Below are positions 23,225 to 33,552 of a DNA stretch of 42,409 bases, one piece after another; position 1 is the stretch's first letter, and each line of letters begins with the position of its first letter. This DNA comes from Candidatus Peribacteria bacterium (GTDB taxonomy: Bacteria; Patescibacteriota; Gracilibacteria; UBA1369; 2-02-FULL-48-14). The stretch spans positions 1 through 42,409 of the forward strand of contig CALRCE010000007.1 of the NCBI GenBank assembly GCA_943354505.1. Direction: 5' to 3'. The position numbers were made by a program, and so were the translations under genes. Under the pieces are notes generated by a model. That model saw nothing but the letters and a program-made list of their open reading frames with translations. It was not told where the DNA came from and searched no databases.

Positions 23225-23879
23225 GGAGTAGAGGGCGATCCGCTAGGGTTAGCGCCGCAATGGATTTCGCACCGTTCGCCAGCAAGGCGTCTCGGCACGC
23301 CAGCAGCGTGGAGCCAGTCGTGACTATATCATCCACCAGAAGGATTTGGCTACTTTCGTGCAGCAGATTTTTGCAAGAATCTTTCACACGAAACACCTCC
23401 TTCATGTTTTCTTGTCGGTCTTCACGCTCCAACTGAGCTTGATGGCCCGTGTCCTTCACGCGTTCGAGTCCATCCAGAACAGGGCAGCCAAAATACCGCC
23501 CCACGGTTCGGGCCAAGAGTTCCGCCTGATTGTAGCCGCGTTCGAGCAGACGACTTTTGTGCAAAGGCACCGGCACAAGAAGCACAGTGCTCGGTTCGCA
23601 AAAAAGTTCCAGACTCCGCCGCAAAGTCGGAGCGAAATAACGGTACACATCCGCTTGGTGTTTGTACTTAAGGCCGTGCACCAACTGCGCCAAGGTCGAT
23701 TCGGGCTCGTAAAAACAGCCTGAAGCCACTTTGAGGCTCAGCCCCTCAGCGTCTTCAAGAATGCGCACATGCGGCTCAAAAGGCAAAACAGAGCGGCACT
23801 TCAAACACAGCGGCTCGTCCAGGTAGCCGCACACCAGGCACAAACTGGGGAAGAAAAGTTTGAGAAGACCATGAATCAT
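23193..23879 (-). CDS. comFC: ComFC-like phosphoribosyltransferase-fold protein
   Basis: 228 residues. An N-terminal zinc-ribbon-like segment (CLVCGYLDEPLCLKC) leads to a type I phosphoribosyltransferase domain with VPVPLHKSRLLERGYNQAELLA and the PRPP-binding loop ILLVDDIVTTGSTLLACRDAL. This is the ComFC/GntX family, needed for uptake of transforming DNA in competent bacteria. All the usual motifs are present, and length is normal. No other competence gene is in this window. It is the upstream partner of the overlapping glycosyltransferase gene, although functional linkage is not obvious. Confidence 0.92.
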   Translation of the reverse strand: MIHGLLKLFFPSLCLVCGYLDEPLCLKCRSVLPFEPHVRILEDAEGLSLKVASGCFYEPESTLAQLVHGLKYKHQADVYRYFAPTLRRSLELFCEPSTVLLVPVPLHKSRLLERGYNQAELLARTVGRYFGCPVLDGLERVKDTGHQAQLEREDRQENMKEVFRVKDSCKNLLHESSQILLVDDIVTTGSTLLACRDALLANGAKSIAALTLADRPLLHEQVPHRDRN

Positions 23880-25251: not shown

Positions 25252-25746
25252 ATGGAGAATCAAAAACCCTCAAACCAGGGAGGGGGCGGCCATCAAAAAA
25301 GACCCCAGCGTGGACATCGTCGCAGTGTGCACGAAAAGTCCTGCGGCATCATCGTCTATCGTCGTGAAGCCGATGGGCTCAAATTTTTATTGCTGCATTA
25401 CCCCGGCGGACACTGGGATTTTCCAAAAGGTCATGTGGAAAAGATCGACGCCAGCGAAGAAGCCACGGCTCGTCGTGAACTTCAGGAAGAAACAGGAATC
25501 ACTCAAGTGGAATTCAATCGTGGCTACAAAGAATCGATGTATTACGAATTCAATCGTGGCTACAAAGATCGGGTCAAAAAAGTCGTGGTCTATTTCTTGG
25601 CTGAAACGCAAGAAGAAGCCGTCGCAATTTCTTTTGAACACCAAAACTTCATCTGGTTGCCTTATGAGGAAGCCTTGAGCCGTCTGACCTACGAAAATGC
25701 CAAAGAACTGATCCGTAAAGCTCAGCCCTATCTTCATGACCTTTGA
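25252..25746 (+). CDS. Nudix hydrolase, Ap4A-hydrolase-like
   Basis: 164 residues with a basic, Gly/Gln-rich N-terminus, then SCGIIVYRR and the Nudix box GHVEKIDASEEATARREL followed by QEETGI. The RE-L-Q-E-E-T-G-I metal-binding helix is intact; there is one extra residue between its Gly and RE compared with the usual spacing. FPKGHVE fits diadenosine-tetraphosphate hydrolases. Two copies of EFNRGYK lie 12 residues apart, from a 23-bp direct repeat at 25510 and 25546. A possible extended -10 (TGCTACACT, ending 25230) lies upstream. The TGA stop overlaps the helicase start by 11 bp, so the two are translated from one transcript. Confidence 0.9.
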   Translation: MENQKPSNQGGGGHQKRPQRGHRRSVHEKSCGIIVYRREADGLKFLLLHYPGGHWDFPKGHVEKIDASEEATARRELQEETGITQVEFNRGYKESMYYEFNRGYKDRVKKVVVYFLAETQEEAVAISFEHQNFIWLPYEEALSRLTYENAKELIRKAQPYLHDL

Positions 25747-28700
25747 TGAAGCTTATTCCAGCCTGAACCCCGAGCAGAAAGCCGCGGTGGACTCCATCGA
25801 AGGTCCCATGATGGTGCTCGCCGGTCCGGGAACTGGAAAAACGCAAATCCTCACGCTGCGCATCGCGCGGATTTTGAAGGAGACTCAAATGAGTCCGCAG
25901 AACATTTTGTGTCTCACGTTCACCGAATCTGGAGTCGCGGCCATGCGGAAGCGTCTTTTCGAATTCATTGGAACGCCCGCCTATTACGTGCGCATCCACA
26001 CTTTTCATTCCTTCTGCAACGAAATCATCAAAACCAATCCTGAAAAGTTTTTGTTCGCTCGTGAACTCGAAGCCCTTTCGGACGTGGAAGCCGTACAAAT
26101 TTTCCAAGCCATTTTGGATGGAACAACGATCGGAGGTCCCCTCAAACCCTTTGCGGATCCGTATTTTTATCAACGAGACATTTCTGGGCTCATCAAAAGT
26201 TTCAAGCGGGAAGACTTGAGCCAGGAGCAAATCACAGCCGTACTCGACGAAACCGAAGCCACCTTAAAAAAGCACGGAGCCGCACTCGAAGCCTTCATCG
26301 CCACGCGCTCCACGAGCCTCACCGAAGCGGATTTTATGCAACTGCAACTCGAGCTCAATGGAACATTCCTAGCCTCGGCCTTTTTAAATTTTGATCTCAC
26401 GGAAAAAACTCAGCGCACCGAAGCCAAAAAACAACTCAAAGCCGAATTTGAAGACGCTCAAAAAAATCTACCCAAACAGCGAAGCCTCGTGGAACTCTAC
26501 GCGGCCTACCAAGCCGAACTCAAAAAGCGCGGCCGCTACGACTACGAAGACATGATCCTCATGGTGGTGCGCAAAATCAAAGAAGACGCCGACTTGCTCG
26601 CAACTCTCCAGGAGCAATTTCAATACATCCTCGTGGACGAATACCAAGACACCAACGGAGCCCAAAACGAAGTCGTCGATTTGCTCGCCAGTTTCTACGA
26701 AGTCCCGAATGTGTTTGTGGTGGGGGACGACAAGCAATCCATCTACCGTTTTCAAGGAGCCTCGCTCGAAAACATGTTGGCGTTTTACCGTAGTTACAAA
26801 GAGCACATCGAACTGATTCCTTTGCAAAGCAATTACCGCAGCCAACAAAACATTTTAGACGCGGCCACGCGCCTCATCCATCACAACGAACAAGGGCTTG
26901 AAACCCTAATCCCGGAACTGGAGCAAAGCCTCAAGTCTGAGGCGCTGCACCCTGTGGTGCCGCTCGCTCGCCAAGAGCTCGCGAGCCCCGCCGAAGAACG
27001 CAGTTTCATCCTCGAATCCGTTGAGGCACTCATCAAAGCCGGCACCGAGCCGCGCGAAATCGCAGTGCTCTACCGCAACAACAGCGATGTGGAAGAACTC
27101 GAAGAACTCTTCCTCCGCGCCAAGATGCCTTTTCACGTTTACTCCGGCAAGGACATTCTCAAAGATAAAACCCTGCAAAGTCTCATTCGCCTCTTCACGT
27201 GGCTCGCCAATCCTACGGAAGACCACGAACTCTTCTTGCTGCTCAACGCCGATTTCTTGAATCTCCCCGCGCTGGAGCTCATCCAGCTCACACGCAAAGC
27301 TTCCGAGCAACGCCAAAAACTCTGGGACGCGCTCACTACGGCGCCGGAACCTTTTCAAAAACTGCATGAGAATTTAGCCGAGTGGCAAAAAGCCGCCACC
27401 AACAAAACGCTCGTGGAGTTTTTCGAGCTCGTCATCAATGAATCCGGCTACCTCACCTTTATTATGAGCAAGGAAAATCGCATCGAGCACCTCAATCGAT
27501 TGAATACATTTTTTGATCAAATTAAAGCCTGGAACCGTTCCAATTCAAAACTCAATTTAACAGGTTTAATTGAACTCCTTCAGCTCCATCAGGAAAACCG
27601 CATCGCCATTTTAGAAGCCGAACTCAGCACTCAAAAAAATGCAGTCGCCCTCATGACGGCGCACCGTTCCAAAGGCCTCGAATTCGAACATGTATTCTTG
27701 ATGAATTGCGTGGACAAACACTGGGGGAACAATCCCGATCGCAGCAAAATCAAAGCGCCCAAAGGATTACTGAAAAGCATTGAACTCTTGCCTAAAGAAA
27801 AGAACGAAGACGAGCGCCGACTCTTTTATGTGGCTATGACGCGCGCCAAAAAAACGCTTACTTTCACATTCGCAAACAACAACGAAAATGGCAAAGCCCA
27901 AACGCCGTCCCTCTTTTTGGAAGAAGTTGGGCTAGAAGGGGTGGAGCGTCATGAGAACTTTGAAGAAGGCCCCAGTGAAGAGCAACTCACGCAGCGTCTT
28001 TTGCTCAACTTCCAGCCCATCGTGCGCGAGGTGTCGAATGAAGAGCGCGACTTCGTCAAAAGTCTGCTGCAAAACTACACGCTCAGTGTCACGCACCTCA
28101 CGACTTATTTGCGCTGTCCACGCTTGTTCTACTACAACGTCATTCTGCGTGCCCCTCGGGCTAAAACCAAGGAAGCCGCTTTTGGAACCGCCGTGCACGA
28201 AGCGCTTAAGGATTTGCTGGTTACTTACAAACGCAGCAACCAAACCAGCAAAGCTGAACTGCTCGACTCTTTCGAGCGTCACCTCAAGCGCGAAATCCTC
28301 AAAGAAAAAGACTTCGAAAATGCACGAACCTTTGGACTCCAAACCCTCTCCGGTTACTACGATCACAACGAAGGCCGTTTTCCAAAAAATACATTTTTAG
28401 AATACGATTTTGCGCCGCATCATGTGCATGTGGAAGGCGTGCCCATCACTGGGAAGTTAGACAAAATCGAAGTGCTAAGCGAAGCCGATAAAACTGTGCA
28501 CGTCGTGGATTACAAAACCGGCAACCCCGACGGAAAAGCTCAAGAACTCCGTCCGGGCGGAGACTACCACCGGCAAATCGTGTTCTACCAACTACTCTGC
28601 GACCATTCTAAGGACTTTGCCTACACCATGAAGTCCGGTGAAATCGATTTCATCCAAAAAAGTAAAAAGGAAGACGGCTTCGTAAAAGAACTCATTCACG

Positions 28701-28840
28701 TCAGCGAAGACGACAAAGCAGCACTCCTCGAAACCATCAAAGACACTTACGAAGACATTATGAACCTAAAATTCCTTGAGCCCGACGAATTCGCGCTCTG
28801 CGGCGACTGCGAGTACTGCCAGTTGTTTGATAAAAACTAA
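25736..28840 (+). CDS. UvrD/Rep-family helicase fused to RecB-like nuclease
   Basis: 1034 residues. Superfamily 1A helicase motifs: Walker A LAGPGTGKT (residues ~28-36), motif II LVDEYQD, III GDDKQSIYRFQGA, IV NYRSQ, V MTAHRSKGLEFEHVF, VI RRLFYVAMTRAKK. The C-terminal ~250 residues form a PD-(D/E)xK nuclease: FGTAVHEALKD, then VHVVDYKTGN. It carries the four cysteines of an iron-sulfur staple, one in YLRCPRLFYY and three in CGDCEYC near the end, as in AddB-type nucleases. The plan resembles a one-chain AddA/PcrA-nuclease for double-strand break processing or repair. The last 92 bp are duplicated 991 bp downstream. Confidence 0.93.
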   Translation: MTFDEAYSSLNPEQKAAVDSIEGPMMVLAGPGTGKTQILTLRIARILKETQMSPQNILCLTFTESGVAAMRKRLFEFIGTPAYYVRIHTFHSFCNEIIKTNPEKFLFARELEALSDVEAVQIFQAILDGTTIGGPLKPFADPYFYQRDISGLIKSFKREDLSQEQITAVLDETEATLKKHGAALEAFIATRSTSLTEADFMQLQLELNGTFLASAFLNFDLTEKTQRTEAKKQLKAEFEDAQKNLPKQRSLVELYAAYQAELKKRGRYDYEDMILMVVRKIKEDADLLATLQEQFQYILVDEYQDTNGAQNEVVDLLASFYEVPNVFVVGDDKQSIYRFQGASLENMLAFYRSYKEHIELIPLQSNYRSQQNILDAATRLIHHNEQGLETLIPELEQSLKSEALHPVVPLARQELASPAEERSFILESVEALIKAGTEPREIAVLYRNNSDVEELEELFLRAKMPFHVYSGKDILKDKTLQSLIRLFTWLANPTEDHELFLLLNADFLNLPALELIQLTRKASEQRQKLWDALTTAPEPFQKLHENLAEWQKAATNKTLVEFFELVINESGYLTFIMSKENRIEHLNRLNTFFDQIKAWNRSNSKLNLTGLIELLQLHQENRIAILEAELSTQKNAVALMTAHRSKGLEFEHVFLMNCVDKHWGNNPDRSKIKAPKGLLKSIELLPKEKNEDERRLFYVAMTRAKKTLTFTFANNNENGKAQTPSLFLEEVGLEGVERHENFEEGPSEEQLTQRLLLNFQPIVREVSNEERDFVKSLLQNYTLSVTHLTTYLRCPRLFYYNVILRAPRAKTKEAAFGTAVHEALKDLLVTYKRSNQTSKAELLDSFERHLKREILKEKDFENARTFGLQTLSGYYDHNEGRFPKNTFLEYDFAPHHVHVEGVPITGKLDKIEVLSEADKTVHVVDYKTGNPDGKAQELRPGGDYHRQIVFYQLLCDHSKDFAYTMKSGEIDFIQKSKKEDGFVKELIHVSEDDKAALLETIKDTYEDIMNLKFLEPDEFALCGDCEYCQLFDKN
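28727..28818 (+). repeat. Direct repeat copy 1: helicase 3' end
   Basis: Matches 29718-29809 at 88 of 92 positions, in the same orientation. It encodes the C-terminal LETIKDTYEDIMNLKF and the Fe-S cysteines. Confidence 0.9.
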
Positions 28841-28850
28841 CACAGTATAC

Positions 28851-29663
28851 TTATTCATCTTCATCTTCCTTCACACTCACTGGGTAGTTCCCCCAGGCTC
28901 TAGTAGCAAGAATATCTGAAGCAATATCTGCGACGGATTCAGGACCTTTAGGAGTTTCTTCTGATTTTCCCCACTCTGTTGTGTCCACGGATTTCACGTC
29001 CACCTCTTCACGTCCACCACTCCTTGTAGCAGTTGCTGAACTTTTTGGTCCATAGTAGAGCTTAAGCACAAGACCGCGATCGCCATGGTCGTAAAAGCCT
29101 CGTCTGCCGTTGTAAAAGTCACCTTGTGATTTATCAGCATTGATTACAATGGGCCTTAAATCATTGAACGCCTTCAACACAATTTGATAATCCTGATCAG
29201 TTAGGTCCGCCAACTCAGGCTGTTGGAGGGTCTGATAGTTGTTGATCAACAAATTGGAAAGATAAAGGGTTTTACCTCCTTTGACCAAAGCATTGAATTT
29301 TTGAACGCCTTGTTCTGAGAAAGTAGCATTGTCTAATGCGTCCACAAGTCCCTCCAATCCATTGCTATTAAAGCTGCCTTCGTCCGTCAATTTGCACAGC
29401 TGCTCATAAGCTCCTTCCACATCCAGGTTCGGGTAAGTCTCCCCGATTTCAAAAAAAGAAGTTTCTACGATGTCCAACTTCGCTTCAATGCCTTTGACAA
29501 TCCGCTCTTCCCTATCTAAGAGCTGCGAATCAGGCGCGCGTGGACCCTCAACTTTAGAAGATTCATTGGACTGCTGTTCTTGATGGAATTCTGGCACAGG
29601 AACGTAGGCTACCCCGCCTCTCACGCTTGAGGGCTGAATGCGGGTCTTTATAAATCCAATCAT
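28851..29663 (-). CDS. Hypothetical protein lying between direct repeats
   Basis: 270 residues, acidic, without signal peptide or membrane segment. A disordered N-terminus (PEFHQEQQSNESSKVEGPRAPDS) and an acidic disordered C-terminus (ending VKEDEDE) flank a helical core at ~50-190 (FFEIGETYPNLDVEGAYEQLCKL, NLLINNYQTLQQPELADLTDQDYQIVLKAFNDLRP). A Gly/Tyr-rich stretch near 195-215 (DFYNGRRGFYDHGDRGLVLKLYYG) could be a small beta unit. I do not recognise it. It is transcribed against both neighbours and is bracketed by the duplicated helicase 3' end, so it is probably an insertion. A minus-strand TATAAT overlaps the ATG, so it is either leaderless or starts later. Confidence 0.65.
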   Translation of the reverse strand: MIGFIKTRIQPSSVRGGVAYVPVPEFHQEQQSNESSKVEGPRAPDSQLLDREERIVKGIEAKLDIVETSFFEIGETYPNLDVEGAYEQLCKLTDEGSFNSNGLEGLVDALDNATFSEQGVQKFNALVKGGKTLYLSNLLINNYQTLQQPELADLTDQDYQIVLKAFNDLRPIVINADKSQGDFYNGRRGFYDHGDRGLVLKLYYGPKSSATATRSGGREEVDVKSVDTTEWGKSEETPKGPESVADIASDILATRAWGNYPVSVKEDEDE

Positions 29664-29684: not shown

Positions 29685-29837
29685 ATGGAAGGTAAAGCTG
29701 CCAAAAAGGCAGCCTTACTCGAAACCATCAAAGACACTTACGAAGACATTATGAACCTAAAATTCCTTGAGCCCGACGAATTCGCACTCTGCGGGGAATG
29801 CGAGTATTGTTGCCTTTTTAATCACTCCCACTCATGA
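29685..29837 (+). pseudogene. Duplicated C-terminal fragment of the helicase-nuclease (50 codons)
   Basis: A short ORF starting ATG-GAA-GGT encodes ~10 unrelated basic residues and then the helicase C-terminus (LLETIKDTYEDIMNLKF..., with the CGECEYC cysteines), ending FNHSHS. Its TGA overlaps the lipoprotein ATG as ATGA, the typical coupling of adjacent genes, so this copy probably marks the ancestral helicase end. It could be a dead remnant or a translated mini-protein; an AT-rich TACAAT/TATAAA stretch upstream might act as a promoter. Confidence 0.6.
29718..29809 (+). repeat. Direct repeat copy 2: helicase 3' end
   Basis: Second copy of 28727-28818, 991 bp downstream, with four mismatches, all near the 3' end of the repeat. 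Confidence 0.9.
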
Positions 29838-30685
29838 ACAAAATCCTCACCCTCCTCGCAGCTTTCCTACTTTTGACAGCATGCAACTCCACAACGCAAA
29901 GCGCCGTGGGTGAGATAGATTATTTTGTGGGCGAAGCACCCAACGGCGTTCAGAACTCTGCCTTGGGACAACTTTGTTTTGTTCCATCCGAGAAAGAAAC
30001 CACCAATGCTGGTGAAATGTTTTGCTTCACAAACAAAGACGAAGCCTTGAGACTACTGGGTCTAGAAAATCCAGAAAACTGTGACTACTACTGGCATGGA
30101 GTGGCAACGGTCGAGTTCACAGATCTGAGCGTCACAGCAGCTTCTCACGCCAAAGGGGATGCTTGTTTTGAAGAAGGAACCTGCGACTTCAACACCGCCA
30201 CATTCATCAAAGCCACAACAGTCAGTTCAGGTATAAAATGTGAAAACAAACGCAGCGATGCCAGAACTTACACAGATCCCAGTGGTTTTTCTTTTGAATA
30301 CCCCACAGGATGGACTCTTGAGTCTGGAACCGAGGTTCCAACCCTTTTGAGCACAGAAGGAGATCGTATCAGTTTCACCAAAGTGAGCGGGGACAAAGTT
30401 CAAGACGTCGACAATAAATTCGGGGACGTGACTTATTTTTTTGACGAGATTTTGAATGAGTGGCAAGTGATTTGGAACACGGACAGTCAGCCAGCAGACC
30501 AGGGGGCAAAAACTGCAGTACCCAGTTTCTACACCGAGACTGGACTATCCGTCTTTGCAGGGATAGGACGATGGAAAACAGACATTGTCGCCCTCAGTCA
30601 TGATCAATTCCTACTCGTGAACATCACGGGTAGCGGCGAAACCGCTGACTTAGACCCTTTGGTAAAAACAATAATGACAAACTAA
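29834..30685 (+). CDS. Secreted lipoprotein
   Basis: 283 residues. The signal peptide MNKILTLLAAFLLLTACNST carries a lipobox (LLTAC), so the mature protein is probably lipid-anchored by Cys17. Two regions follow: residues ~20-130 with several Cys (CFVPSEKETTNAGEMFCF, ENCDYYWHGVATVEF, GDACFEEGTCDF) and residues ~145-283 with DPSGFSFEYPTGWTLESG, a motif seen in PsbP-like domains. I cannot assign a function. The ATG overlaps the stop of the helicase fragment by 4 bp. The TAA shares bases with the stop of the convergent small gene. Confidence 0.8.
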   Translation: MNKILTLLAAFLLLTACNSTTQSAVGEIDYFVGEAPNGVQNSALGQLCFVPSEKETTNAGEMFCFTNKDEALRLLGLENPENCDYYWHGVATVEFTDLSVTAASHAKGDACFEEGTCDFNTATFIKATTVSSGIKCENKRSDARTYTDPSGFSFEYPTGWTLESGTEVPTLLSTEGDRISFTKVSGDKVQDVDNKFGDVTYFFDEILNEWQVIWNTDSQPADQGAKTAVPSFYTETGLSVFAGIGRWKTDIVALSHDQFLLVNITGSGETADLDPLVKTIMTN

Positions 30686-30990
30686 GACGGAAGATTTTTT
30701 CGTATTACTTTCCCAACAATTCTTCTGGCGACCACAATCGGTGCCCCAACGACAGCGAGAGCCGTTCCACCAAATGCACAGCTTCCATAGCCAACCGCGA
30801 TGGCTCCGAGAACAGCAAGGCGCACTCCTAGACCTACTTGAGTAGGAGTTTGAGTGTAGCATGGAGGTCGTGGTGGATTTGGGGCAGATCCAATAGGTTG
30901 AACTGTTGGAAGGCGTAGATCCGGCGGAACATGAAAAACGACCACAGGTAAGACTTCACTCAATAGATCATAAGGATCATCTTCTTCCAT
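30682..30990 (-). CDS. Small membrane protein
   Basis: 102 residues. An acidic N-terminus (MEEDDPYDLLSEVLPVVVFHV), a Pro-rich middle (APNPPRPPCYTQTPTQ), then a hydrophobic hairpin (VRLAVLGAIAVGYGS and GTALAVVGAPIVVARRI) and a basic tail. I do not recognise it. I used the ATG at 30990; an in-frame TTG lies two codons upstream. It is the gene beyond the last tRNA-like core (31067-31099), and TTGACG, N18, GATAGT lies upstream on the minus strand, so it may be a third unit of the cassette array. Confidence 0.55.
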   Translation of the reverse strand: MEEDDPYDLLSEVLPVVVFHVPPDLRLPTVQPIGSAPNPPRPPCYTQTPTQVGLGVRLAVLGAIAVGYGSCAFGGTALAVVGAPIVVARRIVGKVIRKNLPS

Positions 30991-31066
30991 AGACAAATGG
31001 AAAAAAAGTCGAACAGAACACCTATCACTATCGTCCTACGGAGCCATCCGCGTCAATAGACATCTT

Positions 31067-31099
31067 TCTGGTGGACCACTGTGGAAGATTCTAGAACTT
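31067..31099 (-). repeat. Cassette junction 3 (left arm plus core)
   Basis: Left arm TTCTAGAATC plus core CCACCAGA, matching junction 2 at 29 of 33 positions. The stop codon TAG of the kinase-fold gene lies inside TTCTAG. The following arm differs from the other junctions apart from a later TTGACG. Confidence 0.75.
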
Positions 31100-31789
31100 A
31101 TTTTTTACTCCAACATTAAGAAAACATTCCCATATTCGGTCACGGATCAACTCTCTATATGCATTAGGATCCACATCAGTTGTTTGACCTCCCCAATCAA
31201 CGATCAGAGGGGATTCACTCCCTTTCGGTAAACGTACATTCCTTGGGCTTACATTGCTCAGTTGCCAACCACGTTTGAAAGACTGTTCTCCAATCGTCTC
31301 GTAAAGAGCGGCAGCTTTTTCTGTGATCATTAATTTCGAATCATCTGAAAGGTGAGAGGTGAAAACATCAATCAGATCAATCCCATCAATGAAATCCTCA
31401 ACAATAACTCGATAATCGCCATTCTGAAAAGCTTGATTTCTACCCGTCCTACTCACTTGAGAGTAGCTTCCTAAAAAAGCAGGAGCAAAAGGAATGAAAT
31501 CCTCTTCCACTCGCGGGCTGACCTCACGGTGAAATCGGTCAGGCACATTACGTTTGTGGAATTTTAAAATAAGAGTAACCTCCCGTGACCCGTCGGAAAG
31601 TTGGAGCTTGAAAATTTGTTTGAATCTCTTACCAGCGTTGTAGAGGTCTAACTTCCAGGTCCTAATAGTAGAGAGCCCATACAGTGCTTCGATTTTTCTT
31701 AAAAGTTCATCTTTCGCCAACAAAGACTCTACAGACTCCAGGCGTAAATCAGATGACTCTGTCGGGAAAGTTGTGAGATCAGGGCTCAT
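31091..31789 (-). CDS. Protein-kinase-fold (phosphotransferase-like) protein
   Basis: 232 residues with the layout of the aminoglycoside-phosphotransferase/kinase fold. A beta-3-like LILKFHKRN contains a candidate ATP-binding lysine, VIVEDFIDGIDLIDVF is a hinge, GWQLSNVSPRNVRLP stands where the catalytic loop (HxDxxxxN) should be, and LIVDWGGQ is the metal-binding D-W/F-G. The catalytic Asp of the loop appears as Asn or Ser, so it may be catalytically weak or a pseudokinase. It starts 7 bp after the cysteine-cluster gene, and the two form one cassette-like unit. Its last codon and stop lie within the junction repeat. Confidence 0.6.
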   Translation of the reverse strand: MSPDLTTFPTESSDLRLESVESLLAKDELLRKIEALYGLSTIRTWKLDLYNAGKRFKQIFKLQLSDGSREVTLILKFHKRNVPDRFHREVSPRVEEDFIPFAPAFLGSYSQVSRTGRNQAFQNGDYRVIVEDFIDGIDLIDVFTSHLSDDSKLMITEKAAALYETIGEQSFKRGWQLSNVSPRNVRLPKGSESPLIVDWGGQTTDVDPNAYRELIRDRIWECFLNVGVKNKF

Positions 31790-31796
31790 TCTCGTC

Positions 31797-32459
31797 CTAA
31801 TTAGTGGGGAAGTAATTGCGAATCAATTCTCGTTGCGCGGGCTTTATGTCACCTCTGTTTAAGCCCAATTGGCTTTTGAGGATGCGCAGTCTTTTAGGGG
31901 GAAATGTCTCTAAAATTCGTCTTAAATTCATCAAGGCCAGTAGTTCAAGAGGGAGTCTATCGAGGCGAATCAACTTTTTTAAAAAAGTTTCAAGTTGATC
32001 GGGCTCAATCTTTGAAGGAGGGCCCCAGTGGATGAACCCTTTTTCGATGAACTTGTTGGCCGTGTGTAAATCATTCGAATTGCACATCAAGAGCACCCAA
32101 GTCCAAAAATTATTAACAATCACGTCAAAGTGTGAAATGCCGGGAAAATCTTCTGGATTGAAGTCACCGGGCCCGTGCCAATCTCTGCAGTGTTGGAGAG
32201 CAGGATGATCTTTTATGTGATGAGCCTGACATAAAGAAGAGCCCTCTTCGGTAGTGGCTAAGTGTGGGCAGACGGTGAGAACAGCTTTTCTCGTTAGCGA
32301 GACGGGTTCATCGACTGTTTCTGGAATTCGGATAGGAAGGCGATCTTCAAAAGCAACGCAGCAAAGTCCACACTGGTTACACTCTCCTCGTGCGGCACAC
32401 TTCACCATTTCTTCTTTTGTGTGCTCTCGTGACTGATCAAGCCAATCCACTAATTTCAT
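31797..32459 (-). CDS. YkgJ-type cysteine-cluster (metal-chelating) protein
   Basis: 220 residues. Clustered cysteines CNQCGLCC near the N-terminus plus VCPHLATTEEGSSLCQAHHIKDHPALQHC match the putative zinc/iron-chelating YkgJ family, proposed to bind metal or an Fe-S cluster. The C-terminal half is helical and without known motifs. The frame is open upstream to 32516, but that segment is the junction repeat with its promoter, so I chose ATG 32459 (MKLVDWLDQ). It is followed at 7 bp by the kinase-fold gene. Confidence 0.75.
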   Translation of the reverse strand: MKLVDWLDQSREHTKEEMVKCAARGECNQCGLCCVAFEDRLPIRIPETVDEPVSLTRKAVLTVCPHLATTEEGSSLCQAHHIKDHPALQHCRDWHGPGDFNPEDFPGISHFDVIVNNFWTWVLLMCNSNDLHTANKFIEKGFIHWGPPSKIEPDQLETFLKKLIRLDRLPLELLALMNLRRILETFPPKRLRILKSQLGLNRGDIKPAQRELIRNYFPTN

Positions 32460-32482
32460 GCGAGTGAATGAAAATGAAATAG

Positions 32483-32549
32483 CGCATATTAAAACACAAA
32501 CTGACTTATAAGTCAATCTGGTGGAGCACAGTGAATGATTCTAGAACTT
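32483..32549 (-). repeat. Cassette junction 2 (left arm, core, right arm)
   Basis: A hybrid of the other two junctions. Bases 32517-32549 match junction 3 (29 of 33), and bases 32483-32524 match junction 1 (35 of 42); the shared core is CCACCAGA. It begins at the stop codon of the 291-residue gene and ends 24 bp before the ATG of the cysteine-cluster gene. A GACTTATAAGTC palindrome lies in the right arm. Confidence 0.8.
32488..32516 (-). promoter_or_regulatory. Promoter in right arm of junction 2
   Basis: Minus-strand TTGACT (32511-32516), 17-bp spacer, TTTAAT (32488-32493), reading into the cysteine-cluster gene. Confidence 0.6.
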
Positions 32550-33425
32550 CTAATACTGAAACTGACTGAAAACCTGGCTAGAGCCAAAACCAATGGTTGG
32601 TCGCACCGGTCTAAGAACAAAATCAGAGATTTCTATATCAGTAGTTCTACTCGCTATAGCATTGACGATGGGGACGTGTTGACCTTGTGAAGTGGCATAC
32701 AAGTAGTCCTTCCATAGTACACCACCCTTCGTAGTCATAGCATTGGCATCGGACAGAACCGTAACCTTCACGGCCTTATCTTCACCCTTTCTGTGGTACA
32801 TCTTCGCCAGAAAATGTTCGTTTACGCGAACCAAACCTTCACCTCTTCGTGCCGCCTCCATAAAATTTCTCTCCATGCCACCACATGCAAAACCAGGATC
32901 TTTTCTCGCCCCAATGAGCACTTCTCTTGTCTCCTTAGATTCCATTCGTTCAGAGACTCTGGCACGCAAATCGTCTCCTTCAAGTGCAGCTAGAAGTCGT
33001 GCTGCATTATTGAATTGAAAGATTTTGAACAAGTCATCATCCTGAAATGGATCTACTCCGATGGACATTTTTTGTCTAAAAAAATCATTTGGGAAGAGAG
33101 CCTCAATTCCCTCAGGACAGCGAGTATAAAAATCCCACGGATACTTCCTGTGAAGAGCGAGCAGGTGTTCACGCAGTTCCCCGTCAGGGAAAACATCTCT
33201 AAGTTTAGGCAAAAATCCCAAATAACTTTGGGGATGTTCATCATTTAATGCTGTTTTTACGCGTCCTCTAATTTTATCAATACCTAGATAGCGGAGCAGT
33301 CTTTCGTACTGGCTCAGCATATCAACAGCAGAAAGCGCCCTGGCTTCCAAAGCGGCAGTGATCCGTGGGGTGTCTCCTTCCTCTCGAGCGATCAAGGAAT
33401 TAAATTCTCTCGTTGTGAAAGCCAT
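32550..33425 (-). CDS. Hypothetical protein downstream of tRNA-Val
   Basis: 291 residues, soluble. Mainly helical in the first ~150 residues (FNSLIAREEGDTPRI, MLSQYERLLRYLGIDKIRGRV, LREHLLALHRKYPWDFYTRCPEGIEALF), then a more mixed C-terminal half (VLIGARKDPGFACGGMERNFMEAARRGEG, AVKVTVLSDANAMTTKGGVLWKDYLYA). I do not recognise the family. It sits alone between two junction repeats, with a promoter 20 bp upstream of the ATG, so it behaves as a single-gene cassette of ~0.95 kb. Confidence 0.72.
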   Translation of the reverse strand: MAFTTREFNSLIAREEGDTPRITAALEARALSAVDMLSQYERLLRYLGIDKIRGRVKTALNDEHPQSYLGFLPKLRDVFPDGELREHLLALHRKYPWDFYTRCPEGIEALFPNDFFRQKMSIGVDPFQDDDLFKIFQFNNAARLLAALEGDDLRARVSERMESKETREVLIGARKDPGFACGGMERNFMEAARRGEGLVRVNEHFLAKMYHRKGEDKAVKVTVLSDANAMTTKGGVLWKDYLYATSQGQHVPIVNAIASRTTDIEISDFVLRPVRPTIGFGSSQVFSQFQY

Positions 33426-33439
33426 TCAAGAAGTTTAAA

Positions 33440-33481
33440 GGCACATTTAAACATAAACCGACTAACAAGTCAATCTGGTGG
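33440..33481 (-). repeat. Cassette junction 1 (tRNA-Val 3' end plus right arm)
   Basis: The last bases of tRNA-Val (ending CCA) continue into an arm that matches junction 2 at 35 of 42 positions. The first 15 bases from CCACCAGA are identical. Confidence 0.8.
33445..33473 (-). promoter_or_regulatory. Promoter in right arm of junction 1
   Basis: Minus-strand TTGACT (33468-33473), 17-bp spacer, TTAAAT (33445-33450), immediately after the tRNA and 20 bp before the ATG of the 291-residue gene. Confidence 0.55.
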
Positions 33482-33552
33482 GCGATAGTGGACTCGAACC
33501 ACCGACCTCCACAATGTCAATGTGGCGCTCTAACCAGCTGAGCTAACCGCCC
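33476..33552 (-). tRNA. tRNA-Val(GAC)
   Basis: A complete cloverleaf on the minus strand: acceptor GGGCGGT/ATCGCCC, D-stem GCTC/GAGC, anticodon arm CCACA-TTGACAT-TGTGG with anticodon GAC, T-arm GGTGG-TTCGAGT-CCACT, discriminator A and encoded CCA. Its 3' end is the first junction of the downstream repeat array. Confidence 0.97.

Follow-up and report, generated by a model that had tools for sequence, protein, structure and literature searches.

Integron cassettes are compact units of one or two genes pointing in one direction, with a recombination site right behind the stop codon, and they form arrays by successive insertion. Islands that land in tRNA genes (tDNA islands) are recognised by an intact tRNA gene at one end and a displaced 3' fragment of it at the other, with the T-loop and T-stem as a common place of crossover; the published Islander search requires an integrase and rejects candidates below 2 kb (PMC4383910). 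In Dehalococcoides, islands at ssrA stand in tandem after insertion at the T-loop, are bounded by a 20-bp repeat of the ssrA 3' end with a conserved motif just upstream of it, and include 15 islands without an integration module, for which a nature as cis-mobilisable elements (CIMEs) was proposed (PMC3146451). The CIMEs of Streptococcus salivarius are recombinase-less, keep their attachment (att) sites, form accretion stacks and span 1.2-13 kb with cargo, while gene-less microCIMEs measure 130-220 bp (PMC7563491). Here, we analysed a stretch of 42,409 nt from the small genome of a Candidatus Peribacteria bacterium (G000; assembly GCA_943354505.1, contig CALRCE010000007.1), in the following called the window, in which an array of two small gene units lies behind the gene for tRNA-Val(gac). 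Our analysis makes it probable that the array consists of two small recombinase-less tDNA islands, inserted in succession at the tRNA-Val 3' end by a trans-acting recombinase, in the manner of CIMEs and microCIMEs.

The landing site was located by ARAGORN and the Rfam tRNA model at 33476-33552 on the minus strand, on which all elements of the array are read. Its CCA end plus GA forms CCACCAGA (core 1, 33474-33481), and copies of this sequence are found at 32517-32524 (core 2) and 31067-31074 (core 3), with start-to-start distances of 957 and 1450 nt. A fourth copy at 23333 on the plus strand is unrelated (chance expectation for the window: 1.16 copies). Flanks were compared as core plus 34 nt (right arm) and 25 nt plus core (left arm), with the highest-scoring other positions on either strand of the window as controls. 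The right arms of cores 1 and 2 are identical at 35 of 42 positions (next best place 23/42), and the left arms of cores 2 and 3 at 29 of 33 (next best place 21/33), whereas neither right arms 2 and 3 nor left arms 1 and 2 match along their length. Core 2 is hence a hybrid, uniting the left half of junction 3 with the right half of junction 1, as successive insertion predicts. The three cores, the arm matches and the hybrid had all been noticed in a first-pass annotation of this DNA and are confirmed here. Mechanistically, a recombinase provided in trans would probably join the tail site of an element to the tail of the tRNA gene; every insertion would renew the tRNA end and displace the older unit outward, giving rise to hybrid core 2, and repetition at other tRNAs of the genus would produce gene-bearing units as well as short gene-less scars.

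Both units are compact, with lengths of about 1 and 1.4 kb, and each ends in a worn tRNA-end copy. They share a layout in which the right arm begins 2 nt past the CCA, one or two genes follow in the direction of the tRNA, and the left arm, made up of a GTTCTA box and then the worn tRNA tail, is placed at the stop codon. Unit 1 starts with the promoter-like right arm TTGACTTGTTAGTCGG... (33440-33473; TTGACT, 16-17 nt, TTTAAA/TTAAAT), carries a single open reading frame for a 291-aa protein of unknown family (P291, 32550-33425) and ends with the left arm AAGTTCTAGAATCATTCACTGTGCT (32525-32549), 1 nt past the stop codon. In unit 2, the likewise promoter-like right arm TTGACTTATAAGTCAG... (32483-32516; TTGACT, 17 nt, TTTAAT) contains the palindrome TGACTTATAAGTCA and is followed by open reading frames for a cysteine-rich protein of 220 aa (31797-32459) and a protein of 232 aa (31091-31789); its left arm AAGTTCTAGAATCTTCCACAGTGGT (31075-31099) overlaps the stop codon. 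The G+C content is 0.44 in unit 1 and 0.43 in unit 2, compared to 0.48 in the whole window. Folding of the core 2 region is no better than that of its own shuffles (z = 0.05) and gives no attC-type fold.

Comparison of the tRNA-Val locus between relatives showed the insertion. The conserved neighbour of tRNA-Val is a uvrD-like helicase gene (25736-28840, plus strand, in the window), and in two genomes of the family, G003 and G002, the site is empty: the uvrD match stops 5 nt from the tRNA-Val end (match ends at L038:736 and L050:8838, tRNAs beginning at 742 and 8844, respectively). The distance between uvrD and tRNA-Val amounts to 4.6 kb in the window, to 4.9 kb with different genes in the sister species of the same genus (G001) and to about 0.8 kb in G005, and the subtilase gene behind tRNA-Val is retained in four members of the family. 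Relatives thus show both the empty site that the first-pass annotation had proposed to look for and different genes at the same place. At the two empty-site junctions (L038:600-830, L050:8700-8930), uvrD itself appears to run into the tRNA-Val 3' end and to stop inside it. The tRNA-Val inserts of G001 and G005 are without a tail copy and were not classed as cassettes.

Searches with the junctions themselves returned little. The 66-nt junction, used as DNA query against 99 relatives, retrieved the window itself and a 20-nt match inside a gene of G039; the right-arm pattern had 3 matches in GTDB r220, close to the estimated chance number of 3-4; and viral contigs contained no match to the right-arm pattern and none to the left arm.

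The same architecture is found at other tRNAs of the genus. The sequence 3' of 35 tRNAs in G000 and of 32 tRNAs in G001 was read for copies of the respective own tail (at least 9 nt, at most 200 nt downstream or in gaps behind downstream genes), with the expected number computed from non-cognate tails and with four genomes as outgroups (G002, G005, G018 and G053), half of them from the same family and the others from the same order. Own-tail copies of 9-18 nt occur at 9 of the 67 tRNAs of the genus, compared to 0.28 expected, and at 2 of the 115 outgroup tRNAs; several matches of 8-9 nt inside genes were rejected as chance. Some of the copies lie immediately behind a stop codon and close units of one or two genes. 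A second two-unit array stands at tRNA-Asn of G001: its first unit has a strong promoter-like arm (TTGACT, 17 nt, TATAAT), a 329-aa gene and a 10-nt tail copy, and is followed by a 159-aa gene closed by another tail copy, this one with GTTCTA. Behind tRNA-Ala-ggc of the same species, two genes are followed by a Val-type left arm, and the unit at its tRNA-Trp encodes a 333-aa propeller-like lipoprotein with weak glycosidase/BNR matches and has its tail copy directly behind the stop codon. In G000, tRNA-Ser(tga) is followed by a nucleotidyltransferase/HepT-like pair, probably a toxin-antitoxin system, then GTTCTA and an 8-nt tail copy (L106:468-1190), and tRNA-Pro-ggg by an oppositely oriented Bro-N gene with a 12-nt tail copy. 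At Ser, in Asn unit 2 and at Ala-ggc, too, a GTTCTA precedes the tail-copy end by 28-32 nt. A left-arm pattern derived from both Val arms together with the Ala arm recovered, in 59 genomes, only these three and one chance-like match, which lies inside a coding region (G000:C19) and was rejected. Similar units at other tRNAs of both species point to a lineage in which genes are collected at tRNA ends in the absence of a dedicated integrase. The first-pass reading of the array as successive insertion of recombinase-less units at a tRNA end is therefore well supported by the hybrid core, the empty sites, the other genes in G001 and the recurrence of the architecture elsewhere in the genus.

Two further observations concern these tRNAs. 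The gene after the tRNA-Trp unit of G001 is also present at tRNA-Trp of G005, there preceded by a toxin-antitoxin-like pair, a YafQ-like toxin and a small partner located between the tRNA and the conserved neighbour (L141:413-924). In G000, the same 15 nt, CCACCAGATTGACTT, follow tRNA-Ala(ggc) as follow tRNA-Val, at the former directly before mscL (L102:366-380).

Could the repeats simply be promoter and terminator sequences of neighbouring genes, spread by local duplication and involving no site-specific insertion? The right arms do score as promoters, with a -10 box graded as fair, and one of them folds into a terminator-like hairpin. Moreover, a TTGAC starting at most 12 nt past the CCA is found at 9 of 68 tRNAs of the genus (5/35 in G000, 4/33 in G001; 0/53 in G002 and G005 together). 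Such duplication, however, leaves unexplained why the copies contain the tRNA end, why cognate tails occur at many tRNAs and why there are empty sites, and we disfavour it as very improbable.

Five of the tail copies close short inserts of 37-157 nt that contain no genes, at tRNAs Arg-tct, Glu-ttc and Pro-cgg of G000 and Arg-gcg and Pro-cgg of G001; three of these copies (Arg-tct, Glu-ttc and Arg-gcg) have a length of 18 nt and begin at the T-loop. As the 18-nt copies start next to position 58, tRNA-primed reverse transcription was considered as their origin and given up, with nothing else in its support. Two of the gene-less inserts (105 and 113 nt; L095:350-472 and L103 behind tRNA-Glu(ttc)) have 45 nt in common just 5' of each 18-nt tail copy, a sequence present nowhere else in 59 genomes. 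Inserts of this kind look like scars and would fit a history in which integrase-bearing elements decayed by deletion to a gene or two, leaving fixed remnants that were never mobile at their present size. The worn state of the Val tail copies and the lack of a dedicated integrase in the genus in a PF00589 search agree with such a history, and CIMEs have been described as decay products of this type (PMC7563491). Nevertheless, both arms are kept in two neighbouring units whose genes take up the whole space between the promoter and the stop codon beside the left arm, an arrangement that would not necessarily survive random deletion, and similar compact units are found again at Asn, Ala, Trp and Ser. 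We thus regard pure decay as rather unlikely.

If small islands accumulate at tRNA ends by the action of a recombinase in trans, its source becomes the next question. None of the unit proteins matches a recombinase family in Pfam, NCBIfam or PHROG, and the examined region of the window contains no integrase. A single tyrosine recombinase gene, Xer-like, was found elsewhere in the genome, on another contig (C35); a dedicated recombinase was not found. Among the relatives, G001, G002 and G005 have two PF00589 matches each, G003 has one and G004 has six. Since the genome is 97.7% complete and recombinase classes other than PF00589 were not searched, a helper recombinase could have been missed. 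The tRNA neighbourhoods that were read showed no parent integrative and conjugative element (ICE) or integrative and mobilisable element (IME), and the whole genomes were not searched for relaxases. The left arm with its tail of roughly 30 bp is about as long as a dif site. One might thus argue that the host Xer recombinase, the sole tyrosine recombinase found in G000, moves the units by using arm and tail as a dif-like site. We consider this improbable, as no dif-like sequence was evident in the arms and relatives devoid of tail copies have Xer-like genes as well. A bolder extension would be a lineage-wide capture system, in which promoter-bearing cassettes of one or two genes use tRNA tails as interchangeable landing sites and a host or visiting recombinase acts in trans, so that the tRNA genes jointly serve as a distributed integron; to us, this appears unlikely.

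Several points weigh against insertion by a trans-acting recombinase. The units lack a recombinase of their own, and the PF00589 search gave no more than the single Xer-like gene in G000. Outside the genus, the arms were not recovered. The tail copies at tRNA-Val are worn (12-13/18); among the tails of four genomes, those of tRNA-Val do give the top or joint-top score (13/18) with the last 18 nt of both left arms (including CCA), but in 26-30% of trials shuffled left arms score as high against one tail or another, which makes this match weak when taken alone. Tail copies of 9 nt are individually weak as well. In an unbiased count, GTTCTA ties with three other 6-mers, and its significance hence rests on its prediction from the Val arms. 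Beyond core 3, the outermost closed junction, lie more inserted genes rather than the native uvrD flank, which makes for an unclean outer end of the array. Finally, the relatives of two cargo proteins (that of P291 in G020, that of the 232-aa protein in G041) are encoded with no tRNA nearby, and the cargo is thus not bound to the cassettes.

In other respects, too, the cargo gives few hints. P291 has no match in Pfam, NCBIfam or PHROG; across 288 genomes of the class it has a single relative (37%), and viral contigs contain none. Taken together, the family libraries yielded one weak PHROG match for the Val cargo. The kinase-like nature of the 232-aa protein goes back to the first-pass annotation alone; its PDB hits have E values of 0.43 or worse, and the structure models (mean pLDDT, i.e. 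predicted local distance difference test, of 59 and 52) were not used, the one for this protein being too weak to decide on a kinase fold.

Among described systems, the ssrA islands of Dehalococcoides are the closest parallel to small tDNA islands accumulating at tRNA-Val: they share the tandem arrangement, the repeat of an RNA gene end, the T-loop, the upstream motif and the presence of integrase-less members. However, some members of those arrays carry an integrase (a serine recombinase) and ssrA is their single target gene, whereas the units described here measure 1-1.7 kb, contain no recombinase and occur at several tRNAs. CIMEs and microCIMEs of S. salivarius fall into size classes similar to our units and gene-less inserts, and as in CIMEs, arms and cores are present at both ends of both units with no recombination or transfer genes inside. 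In contrast to our case, with tRNA genes as targets and a promoter-like right arm, S. salivarius CIMEs stand in tandem with ICEs or IMEs and mostly at protein genes. Of the hallmarks of tDNA islands, displaced tail copies are found across the genus and the empty site is present, while an integrase of their own is lacking. Being smaller than 2 kb and integrase-less, units like these would be absent from Islander listings. The resemblance to integron cassettes noted in the first-pass annotation holds for the layout, but not for the comparison as a whole: there is no integrase, no attC-type fold and no single platform, each unit brings a promoter-like arm, and tRNA genes are the landing sites. 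Because of the tail copies and T-loop boundaries, accretion of the tDNA-island or CIME type is the better fit. The promoter-like right arm, the small size and the spread over many tRNAs, the latter two being unusual features, mark the units as a variant of tDNA islands and not an integron. We infer that the units are or were mobile, possibly as circular intermediates, that a recombinase of separate source would serve them, and that the right arms would act as promoters.

From an evolutionary perspective, insertion of this kind may allow small genomes to acquire individual genes at tRNA ends without having to retain an integrase; a search of the literature found no matching elements for related small-genome bacteria. 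As the published tDNA-island search demands size and an integrase (PMC4383910), such units may be overlooked in other genomes. One tandem array in each of two species, at different tRNAs and with a shared left-arm box, makes the identity of the acting recombinase a directly testable question.

The remaining part of the window insert lies farther from the tRNA than the two closed units and comprises three genes. A 102-aa protein (30682-30990, minus strand), preceded by promoter-like boxes (TTGACG, 18 nt, GATAGT at 31056-31027), had been put forward as cargo of a third unit; as neither a further core nor a left arm was found, this unit lacks a closing junction and would at best be open-ended. 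Its gene meets an oppositely directed lipoprotein-like gene (29834-30685, plus strand; weak LPAM_1 match below cut-off) tail to tail at 30682-30685. Next to it, a second, displaced copy of the 3' end of uvrD (29718-29809, plus strand) aligns with 28727-28818 at 88 of 92 positions, and between the two copies resides a 270-aa gene (28851-29663, minus strand). Together with the duplicated uvrD 3' end, this gene makes up an insertion of its own, about 0.9 kb long, at the end of the neighbouring gene.

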